NCBI RefSeq assembly: GCF_022760995.1
Contig: NZ_JAKWJO010000004.1
Span: 62,001 to 126,000 of the forward strand
From: Dyella sedimenti
Lineage (GTDB): Bacteria; Pseudomonadota; Gammaproteobacteria; Xanthomonadales; Rhodanobacteraceae
DNA length: 64,000 bases
Reading direction: 5' to 3'
The number at the start of each line of letters is the position of its first letter. Position 1 is the stretch's first letter. Of the stretch, positions 41,727 through 57,214 are shown one piece after another. A model generated the notes under the pieces. It searched no databases. It was not told the DNA's origin and saw only the letters and a list, made by a program, of their open reading frames with translations. Position numbers and translations under genes: made by a program.

Positions 41727-42149
41727 TTAGTGGCCGTGGCCACCCCAGCCGCCGTGGCCGCCGCCGCTGCCACCATGGCTGGCGCCGCCATGGCCGCCCC
41801 AGCCGCCGTGGCCGCCATAGCCGCCATGGCCGTAGTAACCCCGGCCGCCGTAATAACCCCGGCCGTAGTAGCCATGCCCGTAGTAGCGCGAACCGCCACC
41901 ATACCAGACGCCGCCGATGCCCAGGCTTACGGCCGGGCCGTAGCCGTAGTAGCCGTAATACGGATAGCCGTAGGAATAGCTCGGGTAGTAACCGTAGTAG
42001 CCGTTGTCGTAGGTCACCCCGCTGCCGTAGTACGCATCGCCGCCACTGGTGGCGACCGGACGCACATAGCTGTAGTCGGGGTAGTAGTAACAGCCGGACA
42101 ATGCCGCGGCAGCGAGCACCAGGGCAAGGCCGGCAAGCATGCGTTTCAT
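41727..42149 (-). CDS. Gly/Tyr/His-rich lipoprotein
   Basis: 140 aa. Signal peptide with lipobox LSGC (near residue 19), then YYYPDYSY, a Tyr-rich region (many YYGYYP units) and a C-terminal tail of GGHGGWGGHG-type repeats. Low complexity; it could bind metal ions through His or form a flexible surface layer. Similar YXGY-rich lipoproteins are seen in xanthomonads, but no function is known. Ribosome site AGGCC is weak. Confidence 0.8.
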   Translation of the reverse strand: MKRMLAGLALVLAAAALSGCYYYPDYSYVRPVATSGGDAYYGSGVTYDNGYYGYYPSYSYGYPYYGYYGYGPAVSLGIGGVWYGGGSRYYGHGYYGRGYYGGRGYYGHGGYGGHGGWGGHGGASHGGSGGGHGGWGGHGH

Positions 42150-42306
42150 GACTCAAGGCCTCTGCAAGTGACGGTTCAACGCTAGCCCTGAACCGTTGAG
42201 TGCGCACTGAATACCAGGCGCTCCGATGGCGGACATTTACCTGTCAGCCATGACCACCATACTCCGGTGGAAACAGCCACACGATGACGCCCTGCCCGCC
42301 AGCGGC

Positions 42307-42909
42307 TCAGAATCGTGGCTGGGCGAGCTGCGACAGGAAATGCGCCAGCACCTCCGGCCGTACCAGTACCGTGAAGATGAGGCCGAACCCCGCGCCCCAC
42401 AAGTGGGCGCTGTGATTGATGTTGCCCTGCCCGCGCCGGTCCATGTAGATCGAATAGGCCACGTAGAGTACGGCATAGATGATCGCCGGCATTGGCAGCA
42501 CGAACACGATGATGCGCGACCACGGCGCCAGCAGGATGTAGGAGAACAGCACCGCCGACACCGCGCCGGAAGCGCCCAGGCTGCGGTAGCTGGGATTGTT
42601 CCGGTTCTTCAGGCAGGTCGGCAGGATCGAGACCACTAGCGCCGCGATGTAGAACAGCGCGAAGCCCAGCGCCCCCAGCCGCACGGCGAAGAAGCCCTCC
42701 ATCGAGCGGCCGAAGAAGAACAGCGTGATCATGTTGAACAGCAGGTGGTTGAAGTCGGCATGCACCAGTCCGTAGGTGACCAGCCGGTGGTATTCGCGGC
42801 TGCGCGTGATGGCCGGCGGCCACAGGATCAGGTCATTCATCAGGCGGGGATTGTTGAACGCCATGAAGGAAACGATGCAGGTAATGGCGATGATGGCCAG
42901 GGTAATCAT
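42307..42909 (-). CDS. Rhomboid-family intramembrane serine protease
   Basis: 200 aa, six membrane helices. Active-site Ser in [12 protein letters not shown] (near residue 115) and His in [13 protein letters not shown] (near 170); [11 protein letters not shown] is the conserved helix-2 motif. ATG 42909 begins [15 protein letters not shown], a direct first helix; upstream extensions are unsupported. Substrates unknown. The 157-bp gap to the next gene holds an ACGGTTCA/TGAACCGT hairpin (42171-42196). Confidence 0.93.
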
Positions 42910-43074
42910 GCGGCAGTCCCTACCGGACCAGAGAGGCAAAGAAGGCGCATCTTGGCCGGCCCGCGCATCGTTGTCGACTCGGCGCCTCGCGGAAAACCCG
43001 GGCACGACGCGGCGATCCGCACTATCATTCGCCGCTTCGCGCGTTTTCCCCCACGCCCATCTCCCCCATTCCCC

Positions 43075-43956
43075 ATGTCGATCCGTTACCTGCATCTGGA
43101 CGTCTTTGCTGCCACGCCCGGCGGCGGCAATCACCTGGGCGTCGTTACCGACGCCACCGGCTGGAGCGACGAGCGCATGCAAGCGTTCGCCCGCTGGACC
43201 AACCTGGTCGAGACCACCTTCCTGCTGCCACCCAGCCAGCCCGGGGCCAGCTATCGCGTGCGCATCTTCACGCCGCACAAGGAAATTCCCTTCGCCGGCC
43301 ATCCCAGCATCGGCAGCGCGCACGCCGTGCTGCTATGCGGCCTGGCCACGCCGCACGATGGCGTGCTGTGGCAGGAATGCGGCGCCGGCGTGCTGCCCAT
43401 CCGCGTCGAGGGCGAAGGCGCCGACCGCCGCCTGTCGCTGGAATCGCCGCATGCCGTGGTCGAGAAAACCGGGCGCAACGCGCACCCTCTGCTGCCGGCC
43501 GCGCTCGCCGGCATCAGGCTCGGCCAGCTGCCGCCGGCCTATGTCGCCGGCGGCCGCCACTGGTGGCTGGCCGAATGCGCCGACGAAGCCAGCCTGCGTC
43601 GCTGGCGGCCCGACCACGCGGCCATCGGCGCGTTGGCCCGGGCGACCGACAGCCTGGGCCTGTGCGTGTTCGCGCGCAGCACGCACCCCGACTACCAATT
43701 GGTGGCGCGCGCCCTGCCCGCCGGCGTGGGCATCGTCGAGGATCCCGCCTCCGGCGCCGCCAATGGCCTGATCGCGGCATATATCGCCCATGCCGAACCG
43801 GAGGGCCCGCTCGCACGCGGCTACACGGTGAGCCAGGGCCGCGAGATCGGCCACGACGCCAGCCTCGCCGTCCGCATCGAAGGCAACAGCGTATGGATCG
43901 GCGGGCGTACCAACACCATCATCGACGGCACGCTGCACTGGAATGGCGCGGCGTGA
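43075..43956 (+). CDS. PhzF-family isomerase/epimerase
   Basis: 293 aa. Two-lobed diaminopimelate-epimerase fold: [17 protein letters not shown] at the N-terminus, catalytic Glu in [10 protein letters not shown] (near residue 45), [13 protein letters not shown] (near 75) and [15 protein letters not shown] (near 222). No phenazine genes are present, so it acts on an unknown substrate. Its stop overlaps the start of the next gene (GTGA). Confidence 0.92.
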
Positions 43957-44423
43957 ATCCGGCCGCGCGGATCTGGGTCGATGCCGACGCCTGCCCGGTG
44001 GCGATCAAGGAGGTGCTGTTCCGCGCCGCCGAGCGCGAGCAGGTGTCGGTCACCCTGGTGGCGAACCAGTGGCTGCGCACGCCGCCCTCGCGCTTCGTGC
44101 GCGCCATCCAGGTGCCCGGCGGCTTCGACGTGGCCGACAACGAGATCGTGCGGCGCGTGGAGGCGGGCGACCTGGTGGTGACGCAGGACATCCCGCTCGC
44201 CGCCGCGGTGATCGCCAAGGGCGCCCTGGCCATGCACCCGCGCGGCGAGCTGTATACCGCCGAGACCATCGCCCAGCGCCTGGGCATGCGCAACTTCATG
44301 GACGAGCTGCGTGGCGCCGGCATCGACACCGGCGGCCCGGCCGCCTTCCATCCGCGCGACAAGCAGGCCTTCGCCAACCAGTTGGACCGCTGGCTGACCC
44401 GGCGCCGCGGCCAGGCCCTGTAG
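43953..44423 (+). CDS. YaiI/YqxD family protein (DUF188)
   Basis: 156 aa from GTG 43953, which overlaps the phzF stop; this coupling and the family N-terminus (IWVDADACP) support the start. Conserved acidic residues in [23 protein letters not shown] and [11 protein letters not shown] form a PIN/FLAP-like nuclease-type site, and [14 protein letters not shown] is diagnostic. Molecular role unproven. The REP-like hairpin overlaps the stop codon. Confidence 0.92.
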
Positions 44424-44495
44424 GCGCACCCTGTGCGCGACCGCCGGATGGCGGCGTGACCTTGTCGCCCCGTCGCACACAGGGCGCACTCCCAC
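44420..44495. repeat. REP-like hairpin (family A, copy 3)
   Basis: Imperfect inverted repeat with arms around GTAGGCGCACCCTGTGCGCGAC and CGTCGCACACAGGGCGCACTCCCAC, between convergent genes. Confidence 0.75.
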
Positions 44496-44504
44496 AAGGG
44501 GACT

Positions 44505-45392
44505 TCAGAGCTTGCGTTCGTCCAGGTGCGCGCGGCGAGCGGCCACCTCGGCCATGATCGACCAGTCCACGCCCTCGTCGCCGGCGGCGAGCGCCTCCAG
44601 CAGGCTGTCGCGCAGCACGCCGGCCAGCGGCAGCGGCACGCGCTGGGTATCGGCGGCGGCCAGGGCCAGGCCGATGTCCTTGTAGCCCAGCGGCAGGGCG
44701 AATCCGGCGGGCGTGTAGCGCTGCTCGGCGATCAGCCTGGCGTAGCCCTGGTAGGCCGGCGCGGCGAACAGGGTGCTGGTCATCACTTCCAGGAAATCGC
44801 CGGCGCCCACGCCATGGGCACGTGCCAGCGCTGAAGCCTCGGCCATGCTCTCGATGGCGGCGCCGAGCATGAAGTTGCCGGCGATCTTCACCACGTTGGC
44901 GCGTTCGGGCGACTCGCCCAGCGGCCAGACGCGGCTGCCCATCGCCTCCAGCAGCGGGCGTACCCGCTCGACCACGGCGGCCTTGCCGGCGGCGAGGATA
45001 TTGAGCTTGCCGGCGGCGGCCACGTCGGGACGGCCGAACACCGGCGCCGCCACGTAGTCCAGCCCGCGCCGCGCGTGCTCGCCCGCCAGTTCCGTGGCCA
45101 GCGCCACCGAGATGGTGGCGTGGTTGACGTGCGTCGTGCCCTTGTCCATCTCGTCCAGCAGGCCGCCGGCAAGAAAGACCTCGCGTACCGCCTGGTCGTT
45201 GGCCAGCATGCTGAACAGCACGTCGCCCTGGGCCGCGCGGTCGGCGCTGCGCACCACCTTGGCGCCCAGCGAGGCCAGTGGCTCGGTGGCGCCCGGCGAA
45301 CGGTTCCACACCGTGACCTCGTGGCCGGCCTTGATCAGGTTGCTGGCCATCGCGCTGCCCATCGCGCCCAGGCCGATAAAACCGACTTTCAT
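44505..45392 (-). CDS. NAD(P)-dependent beta-hydroxyacid dehydrogenase
   Basis: 295 aa. Rossmann GFIGLGAMGSAMASNLIKAGH at the N-terminus, substrate motif region ATISVALATELA, catalytic Lys in VVKIAGNFMLGAAIES (near residue 170) and a helical C-terminal dimer domain with GYKDIGLALAAAD. Closest to 3-hydroxyisobutyrate/glyoxylate/succinic-semialdehyde reductases; the substrate cannot be decided. Confidence 0.9.
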   Translation of the reverse strand: MKVGFIGLGAMGSAMASNLIKAGHEVTVWNRSPGATEPLASLGAKVVRSADRAAQGDVLFSMLANDQAVREVFLAGGLLDEMDKGTTHVNHATISVALATELAGEHARRGLDYVAAPVFGRPDVAAAGKLNILAAGKAAVVERVRPLLEAMGSRVWPLGESPERANVVKIAGNFMLGAAIESMAEASALARAHGVGAGDFLEVMTSTLFAAPAYQGYARLIAEQRYTPAGFALPLGYKDIGLALAAADTQRVPLPLAGVLRDSLLEALAAGDEGVDWSIMAEVAARRAHLDERKL

Positions 45393-45460
45393 GGGGGTGT
45401 TCCTCGGGGATTGTGGAAAAGAGAGAGTTTAGGCGCTCAGGGTGTCCATCCGGTGCGAAC

Positions 45461-45524
45461 GGGGATGGGTAGTGGGGCCCAGCGTTGCGACAACAGGCGG
45501 GCTCGTGCCCCGCTACCCATCCCC
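45461..45524. repeat. REP-like hairpin (family B)
   Basis: 18-bp arms GGGGATGGGTAGTGGGGC (45461-45478) and GCCCCGCTACCCATCCCC (45507-45524), one mismatch. A half copy (CCCCGCTACCCATC) occurs near 1635. It lies between co-directional genes. Confidence 0.75.
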
Positions 45525-45527
45525 CGC

Positions 45528-46706
45528 TCAAACCACCTCGCCCGCCGCGTGTCCGGACGCCCATGCCCACTGGAAGTTGTAGCCGCCCAGCCAGCCGGTG
45601 ACGTCCACCACCTCGCCCACGAAGAACAGGCCCGGCACATGCTTCGATTGCAGGGTGGACGAGGACAACCCATCGGTATCGACACCGCCCAGGGTGACCT
45701 CGGCGGTGCGATAGCCCTCGGTGCCGCTGGCCACGATGGGCCAGTCGTGCAATTGGGCGCCGATGTCGTCGAGTTCCGCCTCGCGGTACTGGCGCATGGG
45801 ACGGCTGTCGAACCAGCGCTCGCACAATCGCTGCGCCAACCGGCGTGGCAAGGCGTCGGCCAGCACGTTCTTCAATTCGGCGGCCGGGCGCGCGGCGCGC
45901 TGCGCGCGCAGCCATGCGCCGGCATCGTGCTCGGGCAGCAGGTCCAGCCGCAGGTCGTCGCCTGGCTGCCAGTACGACGAAACCTGCAGGATCGCCGGCC
46001 CGCTGATGCCGCGATGGGTGAACAGCATGCCGGCGCGGAAGGACCGCCTGCCCACGCGCGCCTCCACCAGCGGCAAGGCCACGCCGGACAGGTCGTGGTA
46101 GTGCTCCTGGTGCTTGCCGCTGAGCGTCAGCGGCACCAATCCCGCGCGCGTGGGCCGCACATCGTGGCCGAACTGGCGCGCCAGTTCGTAGCCGAAACCG
46201 GAGGCGCCCATGCTGGGAATCGACAGGCCGCCAGTGGCCACCACCAGCGACGACGCGTGCACCTCGCCGCGCGCGGTGAGCACGTTGAAGCCCTCCCCGG
46301 TCCTGCGCACCCGCGACACGCCGCAATCGACCTCGATGCGCGCACCGGCCCGGGCGCATTCGTCCAGCAGCATGCGCACGACCAGCTTGGACGACTCGTC
46401 GCAGAACAGCTGGCCCAGCTCCTTCTCGTGGTAGGCGATGCGATGCTTCTCCACCAGCGCGATGACATCCCACGGCGTATAGCGCGCCAGCGCCGACTTG
46501 GCGAAATGCGGGTTGGCCGACAGGTAGCACGAGGGCGTCACGCCCAGGTTGGTGAAGTTGCAGCGCCCACCGCCGGACATCAGGATCTTCTTGCCCGGCT
46601 TGTTGGCATGGTCGACCACCAGCACGCGGCGGCCGCGCTGGCCGGCGGTGATGGCGCACATCAACCCCGCCGCGCCGGCGCCGATGACCAGTACATCCAC
46701 TTTCAC
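45528..46706 (-). CDS. FAD-dependent oxidoreductase, HI0933/BaiN-like
   Basis: 392 aa from GTG 46706 (VKVDVLVIGAG). FAD Rossmann motif GAGAAGLMCAI (near residue 10), MSGGGRCNFTN (near 45) diagnostic of the HI0933 family, ATGGLSIPSMGASG and C-terminal GEVVDVTGWLGGYNFQWAWASG. An upstream ATG (46748) would add 14 residues. One gut-bacterial homologue reduces bile-acid intermediates; the role in most bacteria is unknown. Confidence 0.92.
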   Translation of the reverse strand: MKVDVLVIGAGAAGLMCAITAGQRGRRVLVVDHANKPGKKILMSGGGRCNFTNLGVTPSCYLSANPHFAKSALARYTPWDVIALVEKHRIAYHEKELGQLFCDESSKLVVRMLLDECARAGARIEVDCGVSRVRRTGEGFNVLTARGEVHASSLVVATGGLSIPSMGASGFGYELARQFGHDVRPTRAGLVPLTLSGKHQEHYHDLSGVALPLVEARVGRRSFRAGMLFTHRGISGPAILQVSSYWQPGDDLRLDLLPEHDAGAWLRAQRAARPAAELKNVLADALPRRLAQRLCERWFDSRPMRQYREAELDDIGAQLHDWPIVASGTEGYRTAEVTLGGVDTDGLSSSTLQSKHVPGLFFVGEVVDVTGWLGGYNFQWAWASGHAAGEVV

Positions 46707-46809
46707 GAGCGCACCGCCTGCATAGCCTGCTCCAGCGTAACGGCGCATTATCCGACAGCGGGCGCCATATCGCTTAAACTCCGGCCTTTGAACCCGAGGC
46801 GACCTTCCC

Positions 46810-47292
46810 ATGCCATCCTTCGACGTCGTTTCCGAAGTGGACAAGCACGAGCTGACCAATGCCGTGGACCAGGCCAACCGCGAGCTGGCCAACCGCTTCG
46901 ACTTCAAGGGCTCGGACGCGAAGTTCGAGCTGGACAAGTTCGTGATCACGCAGAGCGCGCCCAGCGAATTCCAGCTGCAGCAGATGCTGGACATCCTGCG
47001 TGGCCGCCTGACCAGCCGCAAGATCGATATCCGCGCGCTCGATGTGGGCGATCCGGAAACCAACCTGGGCGGCTCACGCCAGAAGGTCACGGTCAAGCAG
47101 GGCATCGAGCAGCCCATCGCCAAGAAGCTGGTGGCGGCGCTGAAAGAGGCCAAGCTCAAGGTCGAGGCGCAGATCAACGGCGACAAGCTGCGCGTCACCG
47201 GCAAGAAGCGCGACGACCTGCAGCTGGCCATGGCCGTGCTGCGCAAGGCCGAGGTGGAGCTGCCGCTGCAATTCGACAATTTCAGGGATTGA
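46810..47292 (+). CDS. yajQ: YajQ-family cyclic-di-GMP-binding protein
   Basis: 160 aa, two ferredoxin-like domains. MPSFDVVSEVDKHELTNAVDQ, NRFDFKGSDA and ELPLQFDNFRD are family signatures. In Xanthomonas the homologue binds cyclic-di-GMP and controls virulence gene transcription with a LysR-type partner; no such partner is adjacent here. A TTAAACT -10-like box lies near 46774-46780. Confidence 0.95.
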   Translation: MPSFDVVSEVDKHELTNAVDQANRELANRFDFKGSDAKFELDKFVITQSAPSEFQLQQMLDILRGRLTSRKIDIRALDVGDPETNLGGSRQKVTVKQGIEQPIAKKLVAALKEAKLKVEAQINGDKLRVTGKKRDDLQLAMAVLRKAEVELPLQFDNFRD

Positions 47293-47333
47293 GGCTGCCG
47301 AGCGTCATCCCGGCGCAGGCCAACAAGTGCCTA

Positions 47334-48017
47334 TCAGCCAGCCAGCCCCGCGGCGATGTTCACGCTGATGGCGATGATGAACACATTGAAGAAGAACGCG
47401 ATCACGCTGTGCAGCAGCGCCACGCGGCGCAGGTAGCGGCTGGTGATCTGCACGTCGGAGACCTGGAAGGTCATGCCGATCACGATGGCGAAATAGGCGA
47501 AGTCCCAGTAGTCCGGCTGCGGGGTGTCCGGAAACTCCAGCCCCTCGTGCTGCTTGCCGAAGTTGCCGTAGTAGCCGTGCGCGTAGTGCAGCGCGAACAT
47601 CACGTTGAAGAACAGCCACGACAGCACGATGGTGGCCGCGGCGATGAGCAGCGCCTGCACGCCGCCGTTCTTGGCCGCGCCCAGCTCGGTGGTCAGGGCG
47701 AGTACCACGGCAAGGGTCAGCACCAGCGACGTCCACAGCACACCCCAGCGTCCGGTGTCCTGCTTGCGCGCCTGGCCGCGCATCAGCTCGGGCGTGGTGG
47801 TCTGCTTGAACAGCAGCGCCAGGGCCACTAGGTAGACCACCGCCGCCAGGTCGAAGCCCAGCAGCAGGGCCTTGAGCGGCTTGACCTGCAGGCCCTGCCA
47901 CAGGCCCAGGCCCGAGACGAGGAACACCGCGGCGGCGGCGGCCAGGCGCGGACGCGCGCGCAGGTTGCGGAACGGAATCTTCCGGCGCGGCGTGGCACCG
48001 CCGGTTGGGGCATTCAT
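47334..48017 (-). CDS. DUF1345 membrane protein
   Basis: 227 aa. Five to six membrane helices after a basic N-terminus ([14 protein letters not shown]). Signature [14 protein letters not shown] (near residue 142) and [23 protein letters not shown] (near 170) identify DUF1345. Function unknown. Convergent with yajQ, 42 bp apart. Confidence 0.9.
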
Positions 48018-48115
48018 GCCACCGCCCCCACGCAGGGCGCATGTCGCGTCGTCAAGAAGGTGCTCCCCATCGCCCGGAAACAGGCTTGCCGCATCTTAGC
48101 GCCAAGGCGACGGAT

Positions 48116-48391
48116 TCAGATATGCAGGTCCTGGTACTCGGGATGCCGCGTCATCCAGATTTCCGAGTACGAACAGGCGGGATCGACCTTCCAGTGTTCC
48201 TCGCGCGCCGTGTCCAGCGCCGTGCGCACCAGGTTGGAAGCGATGCCGCGCCCGCCCACGGCGGACGGCACGATGGTGTGGGTGATCGTCATGACGCCAT
48301 CGATGAGCGTGTAGTCCAGCACGCAGGGGACACCGTCGACCTTGACCTCGAAGCGATGCGTCCTTGGGTTGTGGCTGATCTCGGCGGACAT
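48116..48391 (-). CDS. GNAT-type N-acetyltransferase, small (YjdJ-like)
   Basis: 91 aa from ATG 48391, preceded by GGAGG at 10 bases. Compact GNAT core: VDGVPCVLDYTLIDGVMTITHT strands, acetyl-CoA loop VPSAVGGRGIASNLVRTALD, then WMTRHPEYQDL. Loop sequence VGGRGIA matches R-x-x-G-x-G/A. Members of this short family may modify small molecules or proteins; target unknown. The next 203 bp to aroG show nothing else. Confidence 0.88.
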   Translation of the reverse strand: MSAEISHNPRTHRFEVKVDGVPCVLDYTLIDGVMTITHTIVPSAVGGRGIASNLVRTALDTAREEHWKVDPACSYSEIWMTRHPEYQDLHI

Positions 48392-48594
48392 GAAACGCAT
48401 ACCTCCGAAGCAAGGGCGCGCAAGAGTAGAACATCTTGCAGCGAACCCCGTGTGAAGGCCAGGGCTCGCGCTTTTCGCGTTTCTTGGATGCCTGTTTCGG
48501 CAGACTGCCGCAAACAAGCGCGGCACGCGTTTTCAAGCAGGGGAGCAAGACGAGCACCGCCTTCGATGCGCTGCCGGAAGGCCGGACGGCACCT

Positions 48595-49689
48595 TCAGCA
48601 TCCGCCCGCGACGCAGCGCAGGCCCGCCGCCTTGCCCACGGCGCGGCGCGCACGCACGGCGTCGGCCAGGCGATCGAGCACGCCGACCGACGTGTTCCAG
48701 TCGATGCAACCGTCGGTGATGCTCTGGCCGTAGCGTAGCGGCTGGCCTGGCTGAAGATCCTGCCGCCCGCCGACCAGGTGACTCTCCACCATCACGCCAA
48801 CGATGCGCTGCTCGCCGCCGGCCAGCTGGCCGGCGATGTCGTCGATCACCTTCGGCTGGTTCTCCGGCTGCTTGCCGCTGTTGGCGTGGCTGGCGTCGAT
48901 CATCACGCGCCCCGCGAGGCCTCCCTGCGCGATCGCCGCGCAGGCGGCCTCGACGCTGGCCGCGTCGTAGTTGGGCGCCTTGCCGCCGCGCAGGATCACG
49001 TGGCAGTCCTCGTTGCCGGTGGTGGCTGCGATGGCGGTGCGGCCGTCCTTGGTGACAGCCATGAAGTGATGCGGCTGCGAGGCTGCCTGCACCGCATCGA
49101 CAGCGATCTTCACGTTGCCGTCGGTACCGTTCTTGAAACCTACCGGGCAGGACAGCCCCGAGGCCAGCTCGCGGTGCACCTGGCTTTCGGTGGTGCGTGC
49201 GCCGATCGCGCCCCACGCCACCAGGTCGGCGATGTATTGCGGCGTGATCATGTCCAGGAATTCGCAACCGGCCGGCACGCCCAGCTCATTGATGTCGCGC
49301 AGCAGGCCGCGCGCCAGGCGCAGGCCCTTGTCGATGCGGAAGCTGCCATCGAGGTCGGGATCGTTGATCAGCCCCTTCCAGCCCACCGTGGTGCGCGGCT
49401 TCTCGAAATACACGCGCATCACGATCTCCAGCTCGTCCGCATGTCGGCGGCGCTGCTCGGCGAGCCGCGCGGCGTAGTCCAGCGCGGCGGCGGTGTCGTG
49501 GATCGAGCAGGGCCCGATCACCACCGCCAGCCGGTCGTCATGGCCGGCGAGGATGCGGTGCAGGGCCTGGCGCGAGCTGGCCACGGTATGCGCCGCGCGT
49601 ACGCTCGGCGCGCACTCGCGCATGACCTCGGCGGGCGTGCTGAGCGGGGTGATGGCACGGATGCGCAGGTCGTCGGTGGAAGGATTCAC
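48595..49689 (-). CDS. 3-deoxy-7-phosphoheptulonate (DAHP) synthase, type I
   Basis: First step of aromatic amino acid synthesis: PEP + erythrose 4-phosphate to DAHP. It is 364 aa from GTG 49689 after AGGAG. VIGPCSIHDTAAALDYA, KPRTTVGWKGLINDPDLDGSF, SCPVGFKNGTDG, DASHANSGKQPENQ and DWNTSVGVLDRL match AroF/G/H. The isozyme (Phe-, Tyr- or Trp-sensitive) cannot be assigned by eye. Expression is evidently controlled by the leader-peptide attenuator just upstream. Confidence 0.96.
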   Translation of the reverse strand: MNPSTDDLRIRAITPLSTPAEVMRECAPSVRAAHTVASSRQALHRILAGHDDRLAVVIGPCSIHDTAAALDYAARLAEQRRRHADELEIVMRVYFEKPRTTVGWKGLINDPDLDGSFRIDKGLRLARGLLRDINELGVPAGCEFLDMITPQYIADLVAWGAIGARTTESQVHRELASGLSCPVGFKNGTDGNVKIAVDAVQAASQPHHFMAVTKDGRTAIAATTGNEDCHVILRGGKAPNYDAASVEAACAAIAQGGLAGRVMIDASHANSGKQPENQPKVIDDIAGQLAGGEQRIVGVMVESHLVGGRQDLQPGQPLRYGQSITDGCIDWNTSVGVLDRLADAVRARRAVGKAAGLRCVAGGC

Positions 49690-49730
49690 GGTGGGGCTCC
49701 TGGGGTGGGGGTTTCCACTCGCGGCCCAAG

Positions 49731-49761
49731 AAAAAGGCCGCCAGTGGTGGCTGGCGGCCTT
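49731..49761 (-). terminator. Attenuator terminator of the DAHP synthase gene
   Basis: Minus strand: 11-bp stem AAGGCCGCCAG/CTGGCGGCCTT (segments 3 and 4), loop CCACCA, then TTTTTCTT. Segment 3 (49750-49757) can instead pair with segment 2 GCTGGCGG in the leader (49807-49814). Confidence 0.88.
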
Positions 49762-49783
49762 GTGGGATCTGGTGTCGTGTCTT

Positions 49784-49867
49784 TCAGGACAAGCGCGACC
49801 CACCCTCCGCCAGCGGCATCGGATAGCCGTAAAACCAAAAGTAATAGCTGGCGGCGTGGAAGGTCAT
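49784..49867 (-). CDS. Aromatic-rich leader peptide of the DAHP synthase attenuator
   Basis: 27-codon open frame, starting ATG ACC TTC CAC GCC GCC and containing the run SYYFWFYGY (codons 7-15), that is five Tyr or Phe and a Trp within seven codons, then PMPLAEGG and a stop at 49784. GCCGCCAGC in codons 5-7 (49847-49855, segment 1) can pair with segment 2 (49807-49814, codons 18-21). Ribosome stalling on the aromatic codons would free segment 2 to hold segment 3 and prevent termination. The usual Shine-Dalgarno is absent; the predicted transcript starts almost at the ATG, so translation may be leaderless. Confidence 0.88.
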   Translation of the reverse strand: MTFHAASYYFWFYGYPMPLAEGGSRLS

Positions 49868-49875
49868 GACGGCTA

Positions 49876-49904
49876 GGAATAGCACAGGCTTCCCGCTCGC
49901 GCAA
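49876..49904 (-). promoter_or_regulatory. Promoter of the DAHP synthase transcript
   Basis: Minus strand: TTGCGC (49899-49904), 17-bp spacer, extended -10 TGC-TATTCC (49876-49881). Start predicted near 49869, within a few bases of the leader-peptide ATG. Confidence 0.5.
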
Positions 49905-49940
49905 AGGATGCATTTGAAACCAAGCGCTACACTCGTCTCC

Positions 49941-50882
49941 ATGCGCACGCCATGGAACCTGCTGGCCCTGCCCGCCCGCGAACCAATCCGCCGCTGGGTA
50001 CTCGGCGCCTTCCCGCGTGGCGGCGGCGGCCATGTGGACTACGACCAGCCGCTGGGCGATCCCGGCCTGTTCGGTCCGCGCAGCGCCACCTGGCGCGTGC
50101 ACGCCGACTTTCCCGGCATGCTGGCCGGCGGCCTCGCCGCGCTGATGCTGCAGACGCTGCATCCGCTGGCGCTGGCCGGGGTGTGGGACCACTCCAACTT
50201 CCGCGAGGACCTGGTCGGCCGCCTGCGCCGCACCACTTCGTTCGTCAGCGGCACCACCTATGCGCCGCTCGGCCAGGCGCAGGCGTTGATCGAGCGGGTC
50301 AGGCAAATCCACGCGCAGGTGCGCGGCACCACCGAGGACGGGCGCCCCTATGCCGCCGACGATCCGCACCTGCTGACCTGGGTGCACGTCACCGAGGCCT
50401 ACAGCTTCCTGCAGGGCTACCGGCGCTACAGCCATATCGCGCTGCCTGCCGGCGCGGCGGACCGCTACTACGACGAGGTGCGCCGCGTGGCCGAGGCGCT
50501 GGGCGCGCGCGAGGTACCTTCGTCGGAAGCGCAAATCCACGCCTATTTCCGCGCGATGCGCACGGAACTGGCCTTCAGCGGGCGCTCGCGCACCGTGCTG
50601 GAAGTGCTTTCGCGGGTGCGCCTGCCGGTGCCCGCCGCCGGCCTGTCGCGCGACGTGTTCCTGCGGGCCGGCGCGGCGCTGCTGCCGGACTGGGCCGACG
50701 CCCTGCTGCAGCGCTCGCCATTGCAGCGCGCGCAAGCCCGGCTGGCGGCCCGCGCGCTGTGGTCGGTGGCGCCGGTGTTCCGCCAGGCCCTGCACGATGG
50801 CATCGCTAGCCGCGCCTGCGCGCGCGTCGGCGTGGATCCCGGCACGCTGCAGCATTGGCACGTCTCGGGCGCCAGGCCTTGA
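49941..50882 (+). CDS. DUF2236 / oxygenase MpaB-family protein
   Basis: 313 aa from ATG 49941 (MRTPWNLLALPAREPIRRW). GDPGLFGPRSATWRVHADFPGMLAGGLAALMLQTLHPLALAGVWDHS is typical of DUF2236, and His residues in HPLALAG, DHSNF, TWVHVTEAYSF and YSHIAL fit the haem-binding pattern of latex-clearing protein/MpaB relatives. Function unknown; oxygenase activity is inferred from distant homologues only. Divergent from the aro leader, with TACACT (49928-49933) as a possible -10. Confidence 0.85.
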   Translation: MRTPWNLLALPAREPIRRWVLGAFPRGGGGHVDYDQPLGDPGLFGPRSATWRVHADFPGMLAGGLAALMLQTLHPLALAGVWDHSNFREDLVGRLRRTTSFVSGTTYAPLGQAQALIERVRQIHAQVRGTTEDGRPYAADDPHLLTWVHVTEAYSFLQGYRRYSHIALPAGAADRYYDEVRRVAEALGAREVPSSEAQIHAYFRAMRTELAFSGRSRTVLEVLSRVRLPVPAAGLSRDVFLRAGAALLPDWADALLQRSPLQRAQARLAARALWSVAPVFRQALHDGIASRACARVGVDPGTLQHWHVSGARP

Positions 50883-50954
50883 ACCTAGCTGCGTCCGATT
50901 GACACGCCGCGCCGATTCGCTAACGTCGCCAAACCGGACTGCCAGGGGGCCACG

Positions 50955-52826
50955 GTGGCGACGCTCATTCCATCCCGCAACAGCTGCCTGCCGCGCATGA
51001 CCAGCGGCGAGAAACGCCTGTCGGAACGGCTGGAGCAGAAGCTGGAGGACGACTACCTGCTGTGGTATGACGTGGCCATCGGCCCCAAGCAGCGCCGTCC
51101 CGACTTCATCGTGTTCCACCCGCGCCGCGGCCTCCTGGTGCTGGAGGTGAAGGACTGGAAGCCCGGCACCATCCAGCAGGCCGACCGCACCTTGTTCACC
51201 CTGCTCACCGGCAGCAGCAGCGTGAAGGAGCACAATCCGCTGATGCAGGCGCGCGACTGCGCCAGCGAGGTCTACAAGGTGCTGGCGCAGGATCCCGCGC
51301 TGCGCCACCCGCCCGGCCATGTCTACGAGGGCAAGCTTCTGATGCCGTGGGGCTACGGCGTGGTGCTGTCCAACATCAGCCGCAAGCAGTTCGAGGCGGG
51401 CCAGTTGGAAGCGGTGATCCCCGCGCACCTGGTGATCTGCCAGGACGAGATGTACGAGTCGGTGGAACCGGAGGCCTTCCAGGAACGCCTGTGGGCGATG
51501 TTTCCGCAGGTATTCCCCACCGCGCTCACGTTGCCGCAGATCGACCGCGTGCGCTGGCACCTGTTCCCGGAGATCCGCGTGGAGCCCGGCGACGGCCAGT
51601 TCGGCCTGTTCGGCGCGGGCGAACACAGCGGCGCCACCAAGGTGGCGATCCCCGAGCTGATCAAGGTGATGGACGCGCAGCAGGAACTGCTGGCGCGCTC
51701 GCTGGGCGACGAGCACCGCATCATCCACGGCGTGGCCGGCTCGGGCAAGACGATGATCCTGGGCTTCCGCGCCATGCACCTGGCGCGTGCGCTGTCCAAG
51801 CCGATCCTGGTGCTGTGCTACAACAAGACGCTCGCCGCGCGGCTGGAACAGCTGATGGGCGAACGCGGGCTCAGCGACAAGGTGCAGGTCTACAACTTCC
51901 ACAAGTGGTGCCGCAGCATGCTCACGGCCTACCACGTGCCGCTGCCGCCGAACGGCCCCCATTTCGCCGAGGAACTGCCGCCGGCGGTGATCGCCGGCGT
52001 GGACCGCGGGCAGATCCCGCGCTTCCAGTACGGCGCCGTGCTGATCGACGAGGGCCACGACTTCGAGCCGGAGTGGTACCGGCTGATCGTGCAGATGATC
52101 GATCCGAACACCAATTCGCTGTTGGTGCTGTACGACGATGCGCAGAACATCTACGGCCAGGCCAACCGCAAGAAGCTCAGCTGGAAGAGCCTGGGCGTGC
52201 AGGCGCAGGGCCGCACCACCATCCTCAAGCTCAACTACCGCAATACGCTGGAGATCCTCGCGGTGGCGCGCGGCTTCGCCAACGAGCTGCTGCTGGAGCG
52301 CGGCGACGACGAGGACGGCGTGCCGCTGGTCGCGCCCGAGAGCGCGGGCCGGCGCGGCGCCCTGCCCGAGCTGATCCGGGTGGAGCGCCAGGAGGACCAG
52401 TTGCCGGCGATCATCCAGCGCCTGCGCGACGAGCAGGCGCTGGGACGGCCGCTGTCGGACATGGCGGTGATCTACCGCAACAGCTGGGAGGGCGAGAAGT
52501 TGCACGAGGCGTTGCAACGCGCCGGCCTGCCCAGCCGGCTCGCCGAGGGCAACGGCAAGAGCGCGCTGTTCGTAGTGGAGGACACGGTGAAGCTGGTCAC
52601 CATGCATTCCAGCAAGGGCCTGGAGTTTCCGCTGGTGATCATCCCTGGGCTGGGCTCGCTGCCCAAACCCGGCAAGGACGAGGCCGAGGAGGCGCGCCTG
52701 CTGTACGTGGCGATGACCCGCGCCACCGAGCGCCTGGTGATGATCCACCACGAGGATTCCATCTTCAGCCAGCGCATCCGCCACTCGATCAACGAGGTAC
52801 AGGGCCAGCTGGCCACCGTGGCGTAA
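50955..52826 (+). CDS. NERD-domain UvrD-like helicase
   Basis: 623 aa from GTG 50955 (GGGGG upstream). An N-terminal NERD nuclease-like domain has RRPDFIVFHPRRGLLVLEVKDW (D...EVK, near residue 55). The SF1 helicase core follows: Walker A GVAGSGKTMIL (near 263), motif II VLIDEGHDF (near 362), motif III YDDAQNIYG, UvrD-C motifs MHSSKGLEFPLVII and LLYVAMTRATERL. Domain pair is coherent and all ATPase motifs intact. Likely DNA repair or nucleic-acid processing; defence roles are known for some NERD proteins, but neighbours are housekeeping. Confidence 0.92.
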   Translation: MATLIPSRNSCLPRMTSGEKRLSERLEQKLEDDYLLWYDVAIGPKQRRPDFIVFHPRRGLLVLEVKDWKPGTIQQADRTLFTLLTGSSSVKEHNPLMQARDCASEVYKVLAQDPALRHPPGHVYEGKLLMPWGYGVVLSNISRKQFEAGQLEAVIPAHLVICQDEMYESVEPEAFQERLWAMFPQVFPTALTLPQIDRVRWHLFPEIRVEPGDGQFGLFGAGEHSGATKVAIPELIKVMDAQQELLARSLGDEHRIIHGVAGSGKTMILGFRAMHLARALSKPILVLCYNKTLAARLEQLMGERGLSDKVQVYNFHKWCRSMLTAYHVPLPPNGPHFAEELPPAVIAGVDRGQIPRFQYGAVLIDEGHDFEPEWYRLIVQMIDPNTNSLLVLYDDAQNIYGQANRKKLSWKSLGVQAQGRTTILKLNYRNTLEILAVARGFANELLLERGDDEDGVPLVAPESAGRRGALPELIRVERQEDQLPAIIQRLRDEQALGRPLSDMAVIYRNSWEGEKLHEALQRAGLPSRLAEGNGKSALFVVEDTVKLVTMHSSKGLEFPLVIIPGLGSLPKPGKDEAEEARLLYVAMTRATERLVMIHHEDSIFSQRIRHSINEVQGQLATVA

Positions 52827-53008
52827 GCGGCAGGCCGGCACCCGCGCTGAACGCCGGCTGCGCGCCGGTATTGCTGGCCGCCGGCCTGCCCTCTACGCTT
52901 GGGACGGCGGCCAGGGGTGCGATGCCACACATCCGGTCGCCGCATCCTTGACGGCTCCTTCGCACCGAGCGCTGTCTGATCGGGCTGTCCCCACCGGGAG
53001 CGAACACG

Positions 53009-53740
53009 ATGAAACGGATGTTGTGGTCCCTGCTGCTGGCCTTTGGCGTGGTCACGGCCAGTCAGGCGCAGGTCGCCAATGGCGTGATTACTTCCTACGT
53101 CGATCTCTATGCGGGTCCCGACGTGGGCTATCCCACCATCGCGCAGCTGCCCGCCGGCACCAGCGTCGCCATCCAAGGTTGCCTGGAAGGCTGGACCTGG
53201 TGCGACGTGATCACGCTGGGCATGCGCGGCTGGGTGGCCGGCACCTACGTGCAATACACCTACCAGAACCAGCCGGTGATCGTGGCCGACTACGGCCCGC
53301 GCATCGGCATCCCGATCGTCACCTTCTCGATCGGCGCCTATTGGGGCGCCTACTACAGCAACCGGCCCTTCTACCGGAACCGCAACTACTGGTACAGCCG
53401 TCCCTATACGCCGCGGCCGCCGCCGCGCCCGCCGGGTTACCGGCCCGGCTTCCGGCCGCCCGCGCCGGGGCACCGCCCGCCCTCGGGCCCGGCCCACCGA
53501 CCGCCGCCGAACCAGGGGCATCGCCCCCCGCCGAACCAGGGCCATCGCCCGCCACAGGGCGCACGGCCACCGCAAGGCGGTCACCCGCCGCAAGGCGCGC
53601 GGCCGCCGCAAGGCAACCATCCGCCGCAAGGCGCGCGGCCACCGCAGGGCAACCGACCGCCGCAAGGCGGCCATCCGCCGGGCCACCAGGGCGGCCAGCG
53701 CCCGTCCCATCCACCCAGCCATGGCGACAACGGGCACTGA
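53009..53740 (+). CDS. Secreted SH3-domain protein with long Pro/Gln/His-rich tail
   Basis: 243 aa. Signal peptide MKRMLWSLLLAFGVVTASQAQ, then a bacterial SH3 domain (about 24-80: SYVDLYAGPDVGYPTIAQLPAGTSVAI, with GCLEGWTWCDV containing two Cys). Then a Tyr/Asn-rich stretch (YYSNRPFYRNRNYWY) and from about residue 131 a tail of RPPQG/HPPQG/HRPPPNQG repeats encoded by tandem imperfect DNA repeats (about 53500-53700). SH3b domains often bind cell-wall peptides. Role unknown. The last base of the gene starts the next repeat element. Confidence 0.85.
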   Translation: MKRMLWSLLLAFGVVTASQAQVANGVITSYVDLYAGPDVGYPTIAQLPAGTSVAIQGCLEGWTWCDVITLGMRGWVAGTYVQYTYQNQPVIVADYGPRIGIPIVTFSIGAYWGAYYSNRPFYRNRNYWYSRPYTPRPPPRPPGYRPGFRPPAPGHRPPSGPAHRPPPNQGHRPPPNQGHRPPQGARPPQGGHPPQGARPPQGNHPPQGARPPQGNRPPQGGHPPGHQGGQRPSHPPSHGDNGH

Positions 53741-54007
53741 GAGCCTGTTTATGATCTCCGCGTGGCCCGCGCCGGGAGCTGTTTGCGCGCAGGACAAGGA
53801 AGAGCGAGGGAGTGTACGTCCGTACACGACCGAGCGATGACGCTGGCCTGGGGGCAAACAGACCCGGCCCGGAGGGTTGAGCCGGTGTGCCCACCAGGAA
53901 GCCGCGCGCGGCTCGACCTGACGGCCAGTCGGGCGCTTCGCCACGCACGACTCCCTGGCGGGCACACCGACTCAACGCGGGCTACGTGGAGATCATAAAC
54001 AGGCTCT
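53740..54007. mobile_element. MITE-like 268-bp multi-branched inverted-repeat element
   Basis: Ends: 32-bp inverted repeats (53740-53771 and 53976-54007), 30 of 32 matching, AGAGCCTGTTTATGATCTCC outermost. Inside are two arms: 53772-53867 (CCGGG/CCCGG, CTGTTTGC/GCAAACAG, apical GTGTACG/CGTACAC) and 53876-53976 (23-bp arms, 21 matching, starting GTTGAG). No credible coding frame. A short relative lies at 29721-29773. No target-site duplication is obvious. It fills the 275-bp gap between convergent genes. Confidence 0.75.
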
Positions 54008-54015
54008 GAGCCGAT

Positions 54016-54468
54016 TCATGCCCGCGACGGCCAGGGCCACCAGCCACGGCCGTCTCGGGCATACCGGTCCGCCGCCCGCTCGAAGCGATTACGTTCGCTG
54101 ATCCCGCCGCACAGCGCGTACAGGGGCAGGAACAACGGGCCGAGCAGCATGTACTGGTAGACGTGGGCGCGCTCATGGTCGGCCAGTGAGATGCATGGCT
54201 CGACGGCGCGTCCGGCGCGATGCGCATAGGTCAGGCTGGGCACGTCCAGCGTCTCCCCGGTATGCAGGATAACGTTGCCCAGGGTGAGCGCGCCGCCCGG
54301 CCCTGGCCAGGGCATGCGGCGGAACGCCAGCGCCCGTTCCCGTGGACGCCATTGCGGACGCGCACCCCAGGCCATGCCGGCCAGTCCCGCCAGCAGGCCG
54401 AGCAGGCTATTGGGCAGGGTCCAGCAGGCGCCAGCCAGCAAGGCTGTATGCAAGGGCCTGGGATGCAT
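54016..54468 (-). CDS. Membrane protein with HERAH motif, unknown function
   Basis: 150 aa from ATG 54468 (MHPRPLHTALLAG). One or two hydrophobic segments (about 7-35 and 113-130). LADHERAHVYQYMLLGPLFLPLYALCGG contains an H-E-x-x-H zinc-protease-like motif (HERAH) followed by a GPLF-P-Y pattern found in a family of short uncharacterised membrane proteins. NRFERAADRYARDG might give a third ligand. It lies 25 bp downstream of selO and is likely co-transcribed. Confidence 0.72.
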   Translation of the reverse strand: MHPRPLHTALLAGACWTLPNSLLGLLAGLAGMAWGARPQWRPRERALAFRRMPWPGPGGALTLGNVILHTGETLDVPSLTYAHRAGRAVEPCISLADHERAHVYQYMLLGPLFLPLYALCGGISERNRFERAADRYARDGRGWWPWPSRA

Positions 54469-54493
54469 ATGTCCGTTCGCGGGCGCGAGGACT

Positions 54494-56053
54494 TCAGGAA
54501 CTGCACGACAGCATGGAGCAGCCCGCCTTGTGCACGGCCCAGGCCGGGCGCTTTTGCGCATAACGCTCGTTGCCGGGCTGGTCGTCGTAGGGACGACGCA
54601 TCACCTCCAGCAATTCGGCGATGCCCTCGTCATCGCCCTGCATGGCGCGGTCGATCGCCTGCTGGGCGAGATAGTTGCGCAGCACATAGCGCGGGTTGGC
54701 GGCGTTCATGCGGGCACGGCGCTCGTCGTCGGACAACGGGTCGTCCGCCAGGCGCGCGGCATAGCGCGACAGCCACGCGGTGAAGGCGGGTGCCGAGGAT
54801 GCGTACCTGGCGTCGTCATAGAACGCCTCCCGCAGCGGTTCCAGCGAGGGATGCCTCCGGTCCACGTCGGCGAGCGCGCGGAAGAACAGCGTCATGTCCA
54901 CTTCCGCCTCGGCGAGCAGGGCGTACAGGTCGCGCGCGAGGACCGTGTCGCCGTCGCGGCACTCGGCAAGGCCCAACTTGGCGGCCACGTTGCAGCGGTC
55001 CGCCTCGGCATAGGTGGCCGCGTAGTGGTCCAGGCCGGCTTGCAGCGGCCCGGTGCCGGAGAACAGCGGCGCCAGCGCCATGGCGAGCCGGCTCAGGTTC
55101 CACCAGGCCACGTTGGGCTGCTGGCCGAAGCGGTAGCGGCGGCGTCCCGCATCGGTGGTGTTCGGCGTCCAGTCCGGATCGAAGTTGTCGATCCATCCAT
55201 AGGGGCCATAGTCGATGGTGAGCCCGAGGATGGACATGTTGTCGGTGTTCATCACGCCATGCACGAAACCCACCCGCATCCAGTGCGCCACCATCCACGC
55301 CGTGCGCTCGCACACCTGGGCGAACCACGCCGCATACAGCGCCTCGCCCTCGCCGCGCAGTTCGGGAAAATCGCGCGCGATGGTGTAGTCGGCCAACTGG
55401 CGCAACAGGCCGATGTCGCCGCGCGCGGCGGGCAGCTCGAAGTTGCCGAAGCGGATGAACGAAGGCGCCACGCGACATACGATGGCACCTGGTTCGTCCT
55501 GCGGATGGCCGTCGTAGAACATATCGCGCACCACCGTGTCGCCGGTGGCGACCAGGCACAGCGCGCGCGTGGTCGCCACGCCGAGATGGTGCATGGCTTC
55601 GCTACACAGGAACTCGCGCACGGATGAACGCAGCACCGCACGCCCGTCCGCGCCGCGCGAGTATGGCGTGCGTCCCGCGCCCTTGAGCTGCAATTCCCAG
55701 CGCCGCCCCGCGCCATCGATGGCCTCGCCCAGCGAGATGGCCCGCCCGTCGCCCAGTTGGTCGGCCCATACGCCGAACTGGTGGCCGCCGTAGTTGGCGG
55801 CATAGGGCTGCATGCCATCCAGCAGCACATTGCCGCCGAACACCTGCGCGAACACCGGGCTGGCGATGTCGGCTTCCTCCAGGCCCAGGGTCCGCGCCAT
55901 CTCGCGGGACCAGGCGATCACGCGCGGCGCCGCCACGGGCGTCGGTTGCACGCGGGAATAGAGGGCGCCCAGCACCTGCCGTTGCCGGCTGCTTTCCTCC
56001 GGGTCGCCAGGCAGTTCCCGTACAAACGTGTTGTCGAATCGCAGATGGCGCAT
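54494..56053 (-). CDS. selO: Protein adenylyltransferase SelO (YdiU)
   Basis: AMPylates proteins during oxidative stress. It is 519 aa. Pseudokinase fold: [81 protein letters not shown]. The final residues contain CSMLSCSS: the Cys-containing tail replaces the selenocysteine of eukaryotic SelO and can form the regulatory disulphide. ATG 56053 is the family start; 24 extra residues upstream are rejected. Confidence 0.95.
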
Positions 56054-56278
56054 CGGTGCTTGATCCCGTCGAACGTGCTTGCCCGCCTGACCTATCCTGC
56101 GCGCTATCCGAGGCGGACGACGCATCGCGGACCAGGTCGTTCATGTTCATGAAAGTGATGACCGGCTTGCGGAAAACTTACGTTGTATTCAGTGCCAATT
56201 GGCATTTGTGCATGATGCGTGAAGCTGGTTAAAGTGCGCGCAACGGCTGCGACAGGGGCAGCCGGGAGAACGCACCAC

Positions 56279-56479
56279 ATGCACATGCTTCTTGCCCGTT
56301 CCGCCATCGAGCGCGGAATGCAGCTGGTAGCAGGGATGCTTGCCGCGAAGAACACGCAGGACGCCCATCAACAGGCCCCCCAGGCGCACGACCGCTTCCA
56401 GCTCGTGTCCTGGCAACCCGGCGCGCACTCGCGCCGGGAAGACGAACTCGCCCGGCGCCGCGAGTCCACCTTCGGTTGA
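56279..56479 (+). CDS. Possible small protein, 66 aa
   Basis: Open frame with the host's GC-rich third positions, start MHMLLARSAIERG about ten bases after GGGAG, C-terminal half charged (REDELARRREST). No recognised domain. It sits in the gap between selO and rsuA, both on the minus strand; the 225 bp before it are locally AT-rich with a 12-bp perfect palindrome TGCCAATTGGCA (56193-56204). Coding status is uncertain. Confidence 0.35.
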   Translation: MHMLLARSAIERGMQLVAGMLAAKNTQDAHQQAPQAHDRFQLVSWQPGAHSRREDELARRRESTFG

Positions 56480-56494
56480 ACCCGGCCCGCGTCG

Positions 56495-57214
56495 TCACGC
56501 ATCCGCTGGCGGCGGGGCGGAGAACACCTGCGCCACGTCCGCCGCGTTCAGCGCACGCCATTGCCCCGGGCCCAGGCCATCCATCGTCAGCGCGCCCACC
56601 GAGATGCGCGCCAGCGTTTCCACGTGGTTGCCCACCGCCGCGAACATGCGCCGCACCTGGTGGTAGCGTCCCTCGGTAAGCGTGAGTCGAACGCGGCGTG
56701 GCGCGAGCACGTCGAGCGCGGCGGGTTCCAGTGGCTCCTTCTCCGATTCGAGCATCATCGTGCCGCTGGCGAACAAGGCGCCCTCGTCGCCACGCAGGTC
56801 CTGCGCCAGCGTGGCCTCGTAGACCTTGGCGACCCGGGATCGCGGCGAGATGATCCGGTGCAGCAACGCGCCATCGTCGGTGAACAGCAGCAGGCCCGAG
56901 GTATCGCGGTCGAGCCGTCCCACGGTGGACAACGCGGGATCGCGCAGGCGATAGCGCGGCGGCAGCAGGTCGTACACCACGCGGCCGGCATCCTTGCGCG
57001 AGCAGGTCGCGCCCAGCGGCTTGTTCATCATCAGCACCAGGCCCGGCGGCGGATCCAACGGCTCGCCGTCGATGCGGATGCGCTCGTGCGGCACCTGGTC
57101 GTCGGCGTACAACACCTCGCCGTCGGGATCGGTGATGCGCCCCTCGCGGAACATCAGCGCCACTTCCTTGCGGCTGCCATAGCCGAGGTTGGCGATCCGC
57201 TTGACCAGCTTCAT
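56495..57214 (-). CDS. Small-subunit rRNA pseudouridine synthase (RsuA/RluB family)
   Basis: 239 aa from ATG 57214. S4-like N-terminal domain (MKLVKRIANLGYGSRKEVALMFREGR) then the pseudouridine synthase core with catalytic Asp in STVGRLDRDTSGLLLFT (near residue 100), KVYEATL and EGRYHQVRRMFAAVG. RsuA (16S U516) is the best guess because the coupled neighbour also modifies 16S rRNA; RluE/RluF cannot be excluded. Start overlaps the rsmC stop (ATGA). Confidence 0.9.
   Translation of the reverse strand: MKLVKRIANLGYGSRKEVALMFREGRITDPDGEVLYADDQVPHERIRIDGEPLDPPPGLVLMMNKPLGATCSRKDAGRVVYDLLPPRYRLRDPALSTVGRLDRDTSGLLLFTDDGALLHRIISPRSRVAKVYEATLAQDLRGDEGALFASGTMMLESEKEPLEPAALDVLAPRRVRLTLTEGRYHQVRRMFAAVGNHVETLARISVGALTMDGLGPGQWRALNAADVAQVFSAPPPADA

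Follow-up and report, generated by a model that had tools for sequence, protein, structure and literature searches.

The DAHP synthase gene of Dyella sedimenti is very probably controlled by a ribosome-mediated transcription attenuator, which would set the expression of the gene through the aromatic codons of a short leader ORF. The window analysed, i.e., the whole stretch of 64,000 nt, carries this ORF on the minus strand upstream of the gene, together with an intrinsic terminator and segments capable of alternative pairing (Table 1). The original prediction had described a 27-codon ORF, a terminator with five T residues, and four pairing segments, and its coordinates were exact to the base. 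As judged from the codons, the signal would be charged tRNA-Phe and tRNA-Tyr together with tRNA-Trp, the contribution of Trp being very likely. The confidence expressed here covers attenuation via the aromatic codons; a switch sensing only Phe and Tyr and a classical four-segment switch are variants within it.

Table 1. Features of the leader region and of the gene behind it in the D. sedimenti window
Feature	Position	Strand	Remarks
Candidate -35 element, TTGCGC	49899..49904	-	T-rich place approximately 35 nt before the leader ATG, conserved in Rhodanobacteraceae
Candidate -10 element, TATTCC	49876..49881	-	17 nt after the candidate -35, 8 nt before the leader ATG
Leader ORF	49784..49867	-	27 codons, MTFHAASYYFWFYGYPMPLAEGGSRLS, then stop
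Regulatory codons of the leader ORF	Y8 Y9 F10 W11 F12 Y13 Y15	-	7 aromatic codons
Segment 1, GCCGCCAGC	49847..49855	-	complementary to segment 2 in this genome
Segment 2, GCTGGCGG	49807..49814	-	codons P18-E21; predicted antiterminator 5' arm
Predicted long antiterminator hairpin	49750..49814	-	segments 2 and 3 plus inner helices
Leader stop codon	49784..49786	-	near the apex of the predicted antiterminator hairpin
Segment 3, CCGCCAGC	49750..49757	-	common to antiterminator and terminator
Segment 4	within 49734..49744	-	from the sequence
Intrinsic terminator hairpin	49734..49761	-	11 pairs, loop of 6
Terminator T run, TTTTT	49731..49735	-	from the sequence
DAHP synthase gene, AroF/G/H type	48595..49689	-	364 aa, GTG start at 49689

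The leader ORF is followed after 22 nt by the terminator, and 41 nt separate the T run from the GTG of the DAHP synthase gene. A longer in-frame ORF of 54 codons can be read from a GTG at 49948, yet conservation starts only at the ATG at 49867. When the 450-nt region upstream of the gene was subjected to 2000 dinucleotide shuffles, no shuffle contained an ORF of 8-60 codons with at least 7 aromatics per 9 codons; 6 aromatics per 9 appeared in one shuffle and 5 in three. Furthermore, among the 776 small ORFs (8-60 codons) of the window, counted as one ORF per stop codon on both strands, the leader ORF alone reached at least 6 aromatics per 9 codons. So aromatic a leader ORF in front of a DAHP synthase gene is not the product of chance. 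The 137-nt leader RNA folded at -57.7 kcal/mol (z -4.47), an energy reached by none of 200 shuffles.

The upstream regions of 262 DAHP synthase homologues were compared. Of these, 80 came from named-contig loci; the other 182, among them that of the window, came from the family and order of the window. With a small ORF of at least 4 aromatics per 9 codons taken as a leader, 243 of the 262 regions had an aromatic leader; for Xanthomonadales, the order of the window, the figure was 181 of 182. A terminator accompanied the leader in 237 of the 243 relatives (179 of 181 within the order), and GGCGG stood behind the aromatic run in 229 of 236. Among the 80 named-contig loci, 58 (9 of them Xanthomonadales) had both leader and terminator; the 22 loci lacking one or the other comprised 6 Rhodocyclales, 3 Methylotenera, 2 Erwiniaceae, and otherwise Betaproteobacteria or other lineages, one of the 22 (L060) starting 43 nt before the gene and being too short to judge. 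The same leader precedes the DAHP synthase gene in Burkholderia, Bordetella, Massilia, Bradyrhizobium, Mesorhizobium, and Devosia. Attenuation of the DAHP synthase gene by a leader of mixed Tyr, Phe, and Trp codons had been proposed in the original prediction, which named the loss of leader codons or pairing in relatives as one outcome that would refute it. The leader codons, the terminator, and the antiterminator core were all kept in the relatives, and the proposal is thus supported.

Several single loci depart from the common layout. The one locus of the 182 that lacks a leader (L133, genome G171) kept its DAHP synthase and has lost or relocated the switch. Early stop codons lie just behind segment 2 in the leaders L089, L101, L184, and L239; the last of these ends at segment 2, where the scripted scan detected no terminator. 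In four Burkholderia types (L035, L038, L039, and L040), the gap between terminator and gene was 114-141 nt, compared to 44 nt in the window, and it may hold a second element.

Between lineages, the aromatic codons were replaced by synonyms or by codons for another of Phe, Tyr, and Trp, and the aromatic character was retained. In the Rhodanobacteraceae, the three central positions were aromatic in 60, 60, and 59 of 60 rows, these being the anchorable ones of 62. The leader peptides were of the types FYFWYYGFPMPLAEEG-RSP in Xanthomonadaceae, SYFWYFSYDSSLAAGGSRSI in Rhizobiales, KFYFYFFWYLRPLADREG in the Burkholderia types, and FYFYFYGFLKPLAEEG in Bordetella. Codons for Phe, Tyr, and Trp occurred together in 180 of the 181 leaders of the window's order. 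The 53 leaders outside Xanthomonadales contained all three in 31 cases, Phe and Tyr only in 21, and Phe and Trp only in 1. An apparently invariant Ala codon GCG in segment 2 was discarded as an artefact, the codon table being anchored on GGCGG.

The choice of codons within the run was also distinctive. Phe was written UUU in 95 of 120 cases in 62 Rhodanobacteraceae, 62 of 79 in 32 Xanthomonadaceae and allies, and 101 of 131 in 38 others, compared to 39/330, 4/166, and 53/249, respectively, in the DAHP synthase genes behind the leaders. This excess gave a Fisher p below 1e-31 in each of the three groups, the third of which includes 7 extra Xanthomonadales rows, and the rows are not independent. 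The Tyr codons of the run were biased in the same direction, more weakly. The third-place G/C content in the same order of groups was 0.91, 0.86, and 0.83 for the codons before the run, 0.79, 0.77, and 0.73 for the other codons from the run onward, and 0.84, 0.88, and 0.82 for the DAHP synthase genes; the stretch before the run is thus close to the genes in this respect. We read the bias as selection for slow decoding of the regulatory codons; an alternative cause is that the run is kept free of structure.

Trp is a residue rare in proteins, and its place within the run of nearly every Xanthomonadales leader (180/181) argues against an attenuator in which the ribosome stalls at Phe (UUU) and Tyr codons and Trp is incidental. 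We hold this variant to be possible, though not probable. It draws on the 21 of 53 leaders from outside the order with Phe and Tyr but without Trp in the run, on the codon bias, which falls on Phe and, less, on Tyr, and on the aroR leader of Corynebacterium glutamicum (Phe-Tyr-Phe), which responds to Phe limitation according to excerpts of the review PMC11802643.

For the terminator and the antiterminator, conservation, covariation, and coevolution were all assessed on related sequences, which are not independent; the same holds for the other tests across relatives. In the terminator helix of 41 sequences, 4 pairs were changed on both sides, with 15 such cells, a result seen in 0 of 500 shuffles. 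In the window, the fold without segment 4 gave an antiterminator of -30.7 kcal/mol (z -2.25); 4 of 200 shuffles folded at least as stably. In minimum-energy folds of the relatives, the 5' arm of the terminator paired with the ORF over at least 5 pairs in 107 of 107, 72 of 72, and 55 of 57 cases; the count leaves out six leaders that lack a terminator and one in which terminator and ORF overlap. The antiterminator core was 91.9% paired, and its covariation score was matched by 1 of 500 shuffles; the core is nearly invariant, and its number of doubly changed pairs (2) was matched by 75 of 500 shuffles.

RNAalifold on sub-regions recovered the antiterminator core only, or the core plus 3 pairs. 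Since it yielded little, alignment-free tests were adopted, in which the pairing of each sequence's own arms was compared with that of arms swapped between species. Over all sequences, the swap test gave p 0.0008 for segments 3:4 and p 0.004 for segments 2:3. The inner helices of the antiterminator differ in sequence from lineage to lineage, and the inner arms still paired better with their own partners than with swapped ones (permutation p 0.0002 over 66 dereplicated sequences; p 0.001 within Rhodanobacteraceae and 0.026 within Xanthomonadaceae and allies). Outside Xanthomonadales, coevolution of the inner arms was not seen (p 0.45). Relative to dinucleotide shuffles, the inner helices had a modest extra stability (mean z -0.93, -1.15, and -0.79 in three groups), and relative to a synonymous-codon null they reached p < 0.05 in 15 of 60, 2 of 30, and 4 of 37 sequences.

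The leader stop codon sits between the antiterminator arms. In two groups, the distance from the GGCGG core to this codon was 20 nt in 44 of 60 and 27 of 30 sequences, and segment 3 followed the codon after 23-37 nt. The antiterminator is thus predicted to be one long hairpin, with arms that coevolve in Xanthomonadales and with the leader stop codon near its apex. Segment 2 had been placed close to the stop in the original prediction. It does lie 20 nt before the stop codon; however, it lies inside the ORF and forms part of the long hairpin that contains this codon.

This arrangement bears on the model originally proposed, a classical four-segment switch of the trp type, in which segment 1 pairs with segment 2 as a working anti-antiterminator. 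The complementarity of the two segments is exact in this sequence and appears in the fold of the whole leader. The 1:2 duplex in the window had an energy of -19.2 kcal/mol against a mean of -15.8 for the synonymous null (p 0.065), and over the 60 Rhodanobacteraceae the mean p was 0.23. The corresponding means were 0.40 for Xanthomonadaceae and allies and 0.39 for the named-contig set, i.e., little excess, and RNAalifold on an alignment of 92 sequences returned no 1:2 helix. In three groups of 60, 32, and 36 sequences, the pairing exceeded the synonymous-codon null (p < 0.05) in 9, 2, and 8, where approximately 3, 2, and 2 were expected by chance, and a plain-shuffle null in 15, 3, and 11. Own 1:2 pairs were no better than swapped ones (p 0.58), a weak test in that segment 2 hardly varies. 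Moreover, CCGCC arises often from G+C-rich codons. The 1:2 pairing is therefore exact here but not clearly conserved, and the "exact trp/phe-type logic" that had been claimed is not supported, with a segment 2 that lies inside the ORF, in a hairpin holding the stop codon. We consider the four-segment switch rather doubtful; segment 1 is possibly a local addition outside the conserved switch.

The preferred attenuator, with its single long hairpin, would work as follows. Transcription would start near the leader ATG, and a ribosome would initiate on the leader ORF and trail the RNA polymerase. When one of the aromatic aminoacyl-tRNAs runs low, the ribosome would stall within codons 8-15, upstream of segment 2. 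A stall in codons 8-13 would leave segment 2 free and the long hairpin retained; known ribosome footprint sizes suggest that a stall at Y15 would already touch segment 2. The long hairpin, once formed, would withhold segment 3 from segment 4, and the polymerase would continue into the gene. If all aromatic tRNAs are plentiful, the ribosome would reach the stop codon and, because this codon sits at the hairpin apex, should break the antiterminator, its footprint disrupting the inner helices. Segment 3 would then pair with segment 4, and transcription would end at approximately 49731. A ribosome terminating 20 nt past the GGCGG core may leave segment 2 itself free, and termination would therefore rest on the broken inner helices.

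A nascent-peptide sensor resembling TnaC, in which a Y-F-W-F-Y-G-Y-P-x-P peptide arrests the ribosome on free aromatic amino acid, appears very improbable. The P-x-P motif and the order of residues are kept within families, with the second Pro changing synonymously, as such a sensor would have it; the order, number, and kind of aromatic residues vary by lineage, however (FYWYYF, FYFYFFWY, AYWYF, and FFTGYFYF), and arrest under plenty would increase the synthesis of the end products. That the terminator is a plain constitutive one between the DAHP synthase gene and the divergent gene beginning near 49941, with a meaningless ORF, is hardly credible: a terminator near a 5' end does not by itself mean regulation, but the leader persists in 181 of 182 loci and is linked to the gene, its aromatic codons show rare-codon bias, and the antiterminator coevolves.

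Of two dereplicated sets, of 62 and 32 sequences, 1 and 0, respectively, had an SD-like motif before the leader ATG, whereas 59 and 22 had one before the DAHP synthase start; the leader ORF of the window has no Shine-Dalgarno site. Conserved blocks resembling an extended -10, TGTGTTATC..T in 62 sequences and GTG.TA.CAAT in 32, end 7-8 nt before the ATG and mostly lack the final T usual for a -10 hexamer. A consensus promoter scan at the leader gave nothing above threshold. A strict -10 pattern (TA, then T/C/G, two free bases, and T) had a fixed position before the leader ATG in hardly any relative, which speaks against a textbook -10. Given the position of the blocks, transcription would start at the leader ATG or within approximately 3 bases of it, and the leader ORF may therefore be leaderless. 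Leaderlessness is not general, since eight Burkholderia types have a conserved TATAAA approximately 40 nt before the leader ATG.

The gene behind the leader matched Pfam DAHP_synth_1 (E 5.6e-95) and NCBIfam TIGR00034, aroFGH, with 526.8 bits against a cut-off of 173.2. Among the subtype models, AroG gave the top score but stayed under its cut-off, and AroH was above its own. The divergent gene (49941-50879, plus strand) encodes an MPAB_Lcp_cat (mpaB/rubber oxygenase) domain, and its promoter region and the leader's must overlap. Its neighbour at 50955-52823 (plus strand) encodes a UvrD-like helicase with an N-terminal NERD domain. A mechanically called plus-strand ORF begins within the leader, at 49866.

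Other aromatic pathway genes of this genome were inspected with loosely chosen start codons. The second DAHP synthase is of type II (G000:C1:701276-702577, L113), and the best small ORF upstream of it had only 3 aromatics per 9 codons. No small ORF with at least 4 aromatics per 9 was present around the two trpE-like genes. An ORF with 4 aromatics per 9 abuts the start of pheA, where a terminator would not fit. None of the pheA, trpE-like, and type II DAHP synthase genes examined was preceded by a leader of 5 or more aromatics per 9 or by tandem Trp codons. PF01371 was found in 40 of 41 relatives; since this family also includes TrpR-like proteins that are no Trp repressor, nothing was concluded about TrpR from these matches.

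The association of leader and gene was followed with a covariance model, R1, built from 41 diverse members with the terminator as its sole structure; as R1 was built from members, its matches are no blind test. Over 398 genomes of the order, R1 gave matches with E at most 7e-13 in 142 genomes, all of which fall among the 143 with this DAHP synthase (E 1e-100), and no match of this strength occurred in the 255 genomes without it. Weaker matches within the order, among those listed, began at E 5e-7 and mostly covered the 3' part with the terminator. Over 398 phylum-wide genomes, 47 had a match with E at most 1.7e-8, and in 45 of the 46 examined (G625 was left out) a DAHP synthase gene with an aromatic leader upstream was found. 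The 46th (L313, E 9e-9) lies before a chorismate mutase-prephenate dehydratase gene with a Phe-rich leader, and the weaker matches L315 and L317 are likewise Phe-rich leaders before such genes. In L313 and L315, the encoded protein continues into a DAHP synthase domain, i.e., it is a fusion. A further match, L318, has a leader peptide, presumably that of E. coli pheST; the gene behind it was read by eye as pheS. Known Phe leaders thus score weakly with R1, as expected.

A tree was built of 98 DAHP synthases, 79 of them from the 80 named loci, with 19 further ones; on it, the presence of the leader required 7 changes, compared to a shuffled mean of 20.1 and with 0 of 500 shuffles as low, near-copies in the tree favouring a low count. 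With 100/98 support, the genes of Rhodopila, Devosia, Bradyrhizobium, and Mesorhizobium were placed next to the main genes of Xanthomonadales, and gene and leader therefore seem to have moved jointly. Two Xanthomonadales copies, L073 and L263, were placed elsewhere on the tree. The grouping of alphaproteobacterial copies beside most Xanthomonadales copies, with that same support, is also the tree basis of a bolder reading that we rate as improbable: the leaders would form an undescribed, widespread RNA family, in which a leaderless attenuator for three amino acids moves between classes with its DAHP synthase gene as a single cassette and the terminated RNA of approximately 137 nt, or its peptide, also acts in trans. 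Trans action has reportedly been seen for rnTrpL and peTrpL.

Ribosome-mediated attenuation has known examples in trp, his, phe, and ilv. The Phe leader (Rfam RF01859; pheA and pheST) resembles the present one in its ORF of Phe codons, its antiterminator, and its terminator, and R1 weakly finds Phe-rich leaders before prephenate dehydratase genes in other gammaproteobacteria; however, it senses Phe and controls genes other than that for DAHP synthase. The RF01859 model scored 19.7 bits in the window and 23.3 in Bradyrhizobium L011, with a gathering score of 55. The Trp leader (Rfam RF00513) shares stalled translation and alternative hairpins but concerns Trp only, whereas Phe, Tyr, and Trp codons are present here; its model scored 15.9 bits in the window and 17.2 in L011, with a gathering score of 41. 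In the E. coli trp leader, segments 1 and 2 flank the stop codon, unlike here, where it lies behind segment 2. The ilvGMEDA and thr attenuators are alike in that one leader senses more than one amino acid (branched-chain; Thr/Ile) and differ in that none of these is aromatic. Both are listed as attenuators in excerpts of PMC1183508.

The closest in subject is aroR-aroF of C. glutamicum, where, according to excerpts of PMC11802643 and PMC4046766, a DAHP synthase gene is under attenuation with a leader containing Phe-Tyr-Phe. It shares the aromatic leader peptide and attenuation before a DAHP synthase gene; it belongs to an actinobacterium and has Phe-Tyr-Phe, whereas the present leader belongs to Pseudomonadota and has seven aromatic codons including Trp, a comparison of described features. 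The trpL leader ORF of rnTrpL, the attenuator RNA of Sinorhizobium meliloti, is described as leaderless in excerpts of PMC10117765, a property that may be shared here, but it stands before trpE and concerns Trp only. Excerpts of PMC2659441 cite an effect of Tyr-tRNA on E. coli aroF-tyrA, and attenuators upstream of the DAHP synthase-tyrA operon of Vibrio are predicted in excerpts of PMC1173090.

No description of the leader family was found in Rfam or in the literature searched, which also included PMC2965389, PMC10219788, PMC1262725, PMC4833913, and PMC5082802, and an earlier mention is possible. The mechanism itself is known; what appears to be new here is the three amino acids, the stop codon within the antiterminator, perhaps the leaderless ORF, and the occurrence in several orders. 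In the textbook view from E. coli, the TyrR and TrpR repressors govern the first committed shikimate step. A large share of Pseudomonadota, including plant-associated and soil genera, seems to have at this step an RNA switch that reads the end products of all branches together. If true, this would show how one DAHP synthase can serve three branches; the leader would be a testable mixed-codon sensor and would allow annotation in many genomes.

At gathering scores, Rfam had no match within 40000-60000 of the window, nor at the leader in 20 loci. Weak matches, with E up to 5, included BjrC1505 (E 4.9 in the window and 0.79 in Bradyrhizobium L011). This was rejected as an earlier name of the leader; none of the 20 loci matched it at the gathering score, and the excerpts of PMC6337395, the sole paper indexed under this name, only tabulate it. 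Locus L194, from a genome near Stenotrophomonas, carries a C4 antisense RNA (Rfam, 64.3 bits) at 1993-2080 (plus strand), approximately 0.7 kb upstream of its DAHP synthase leader.
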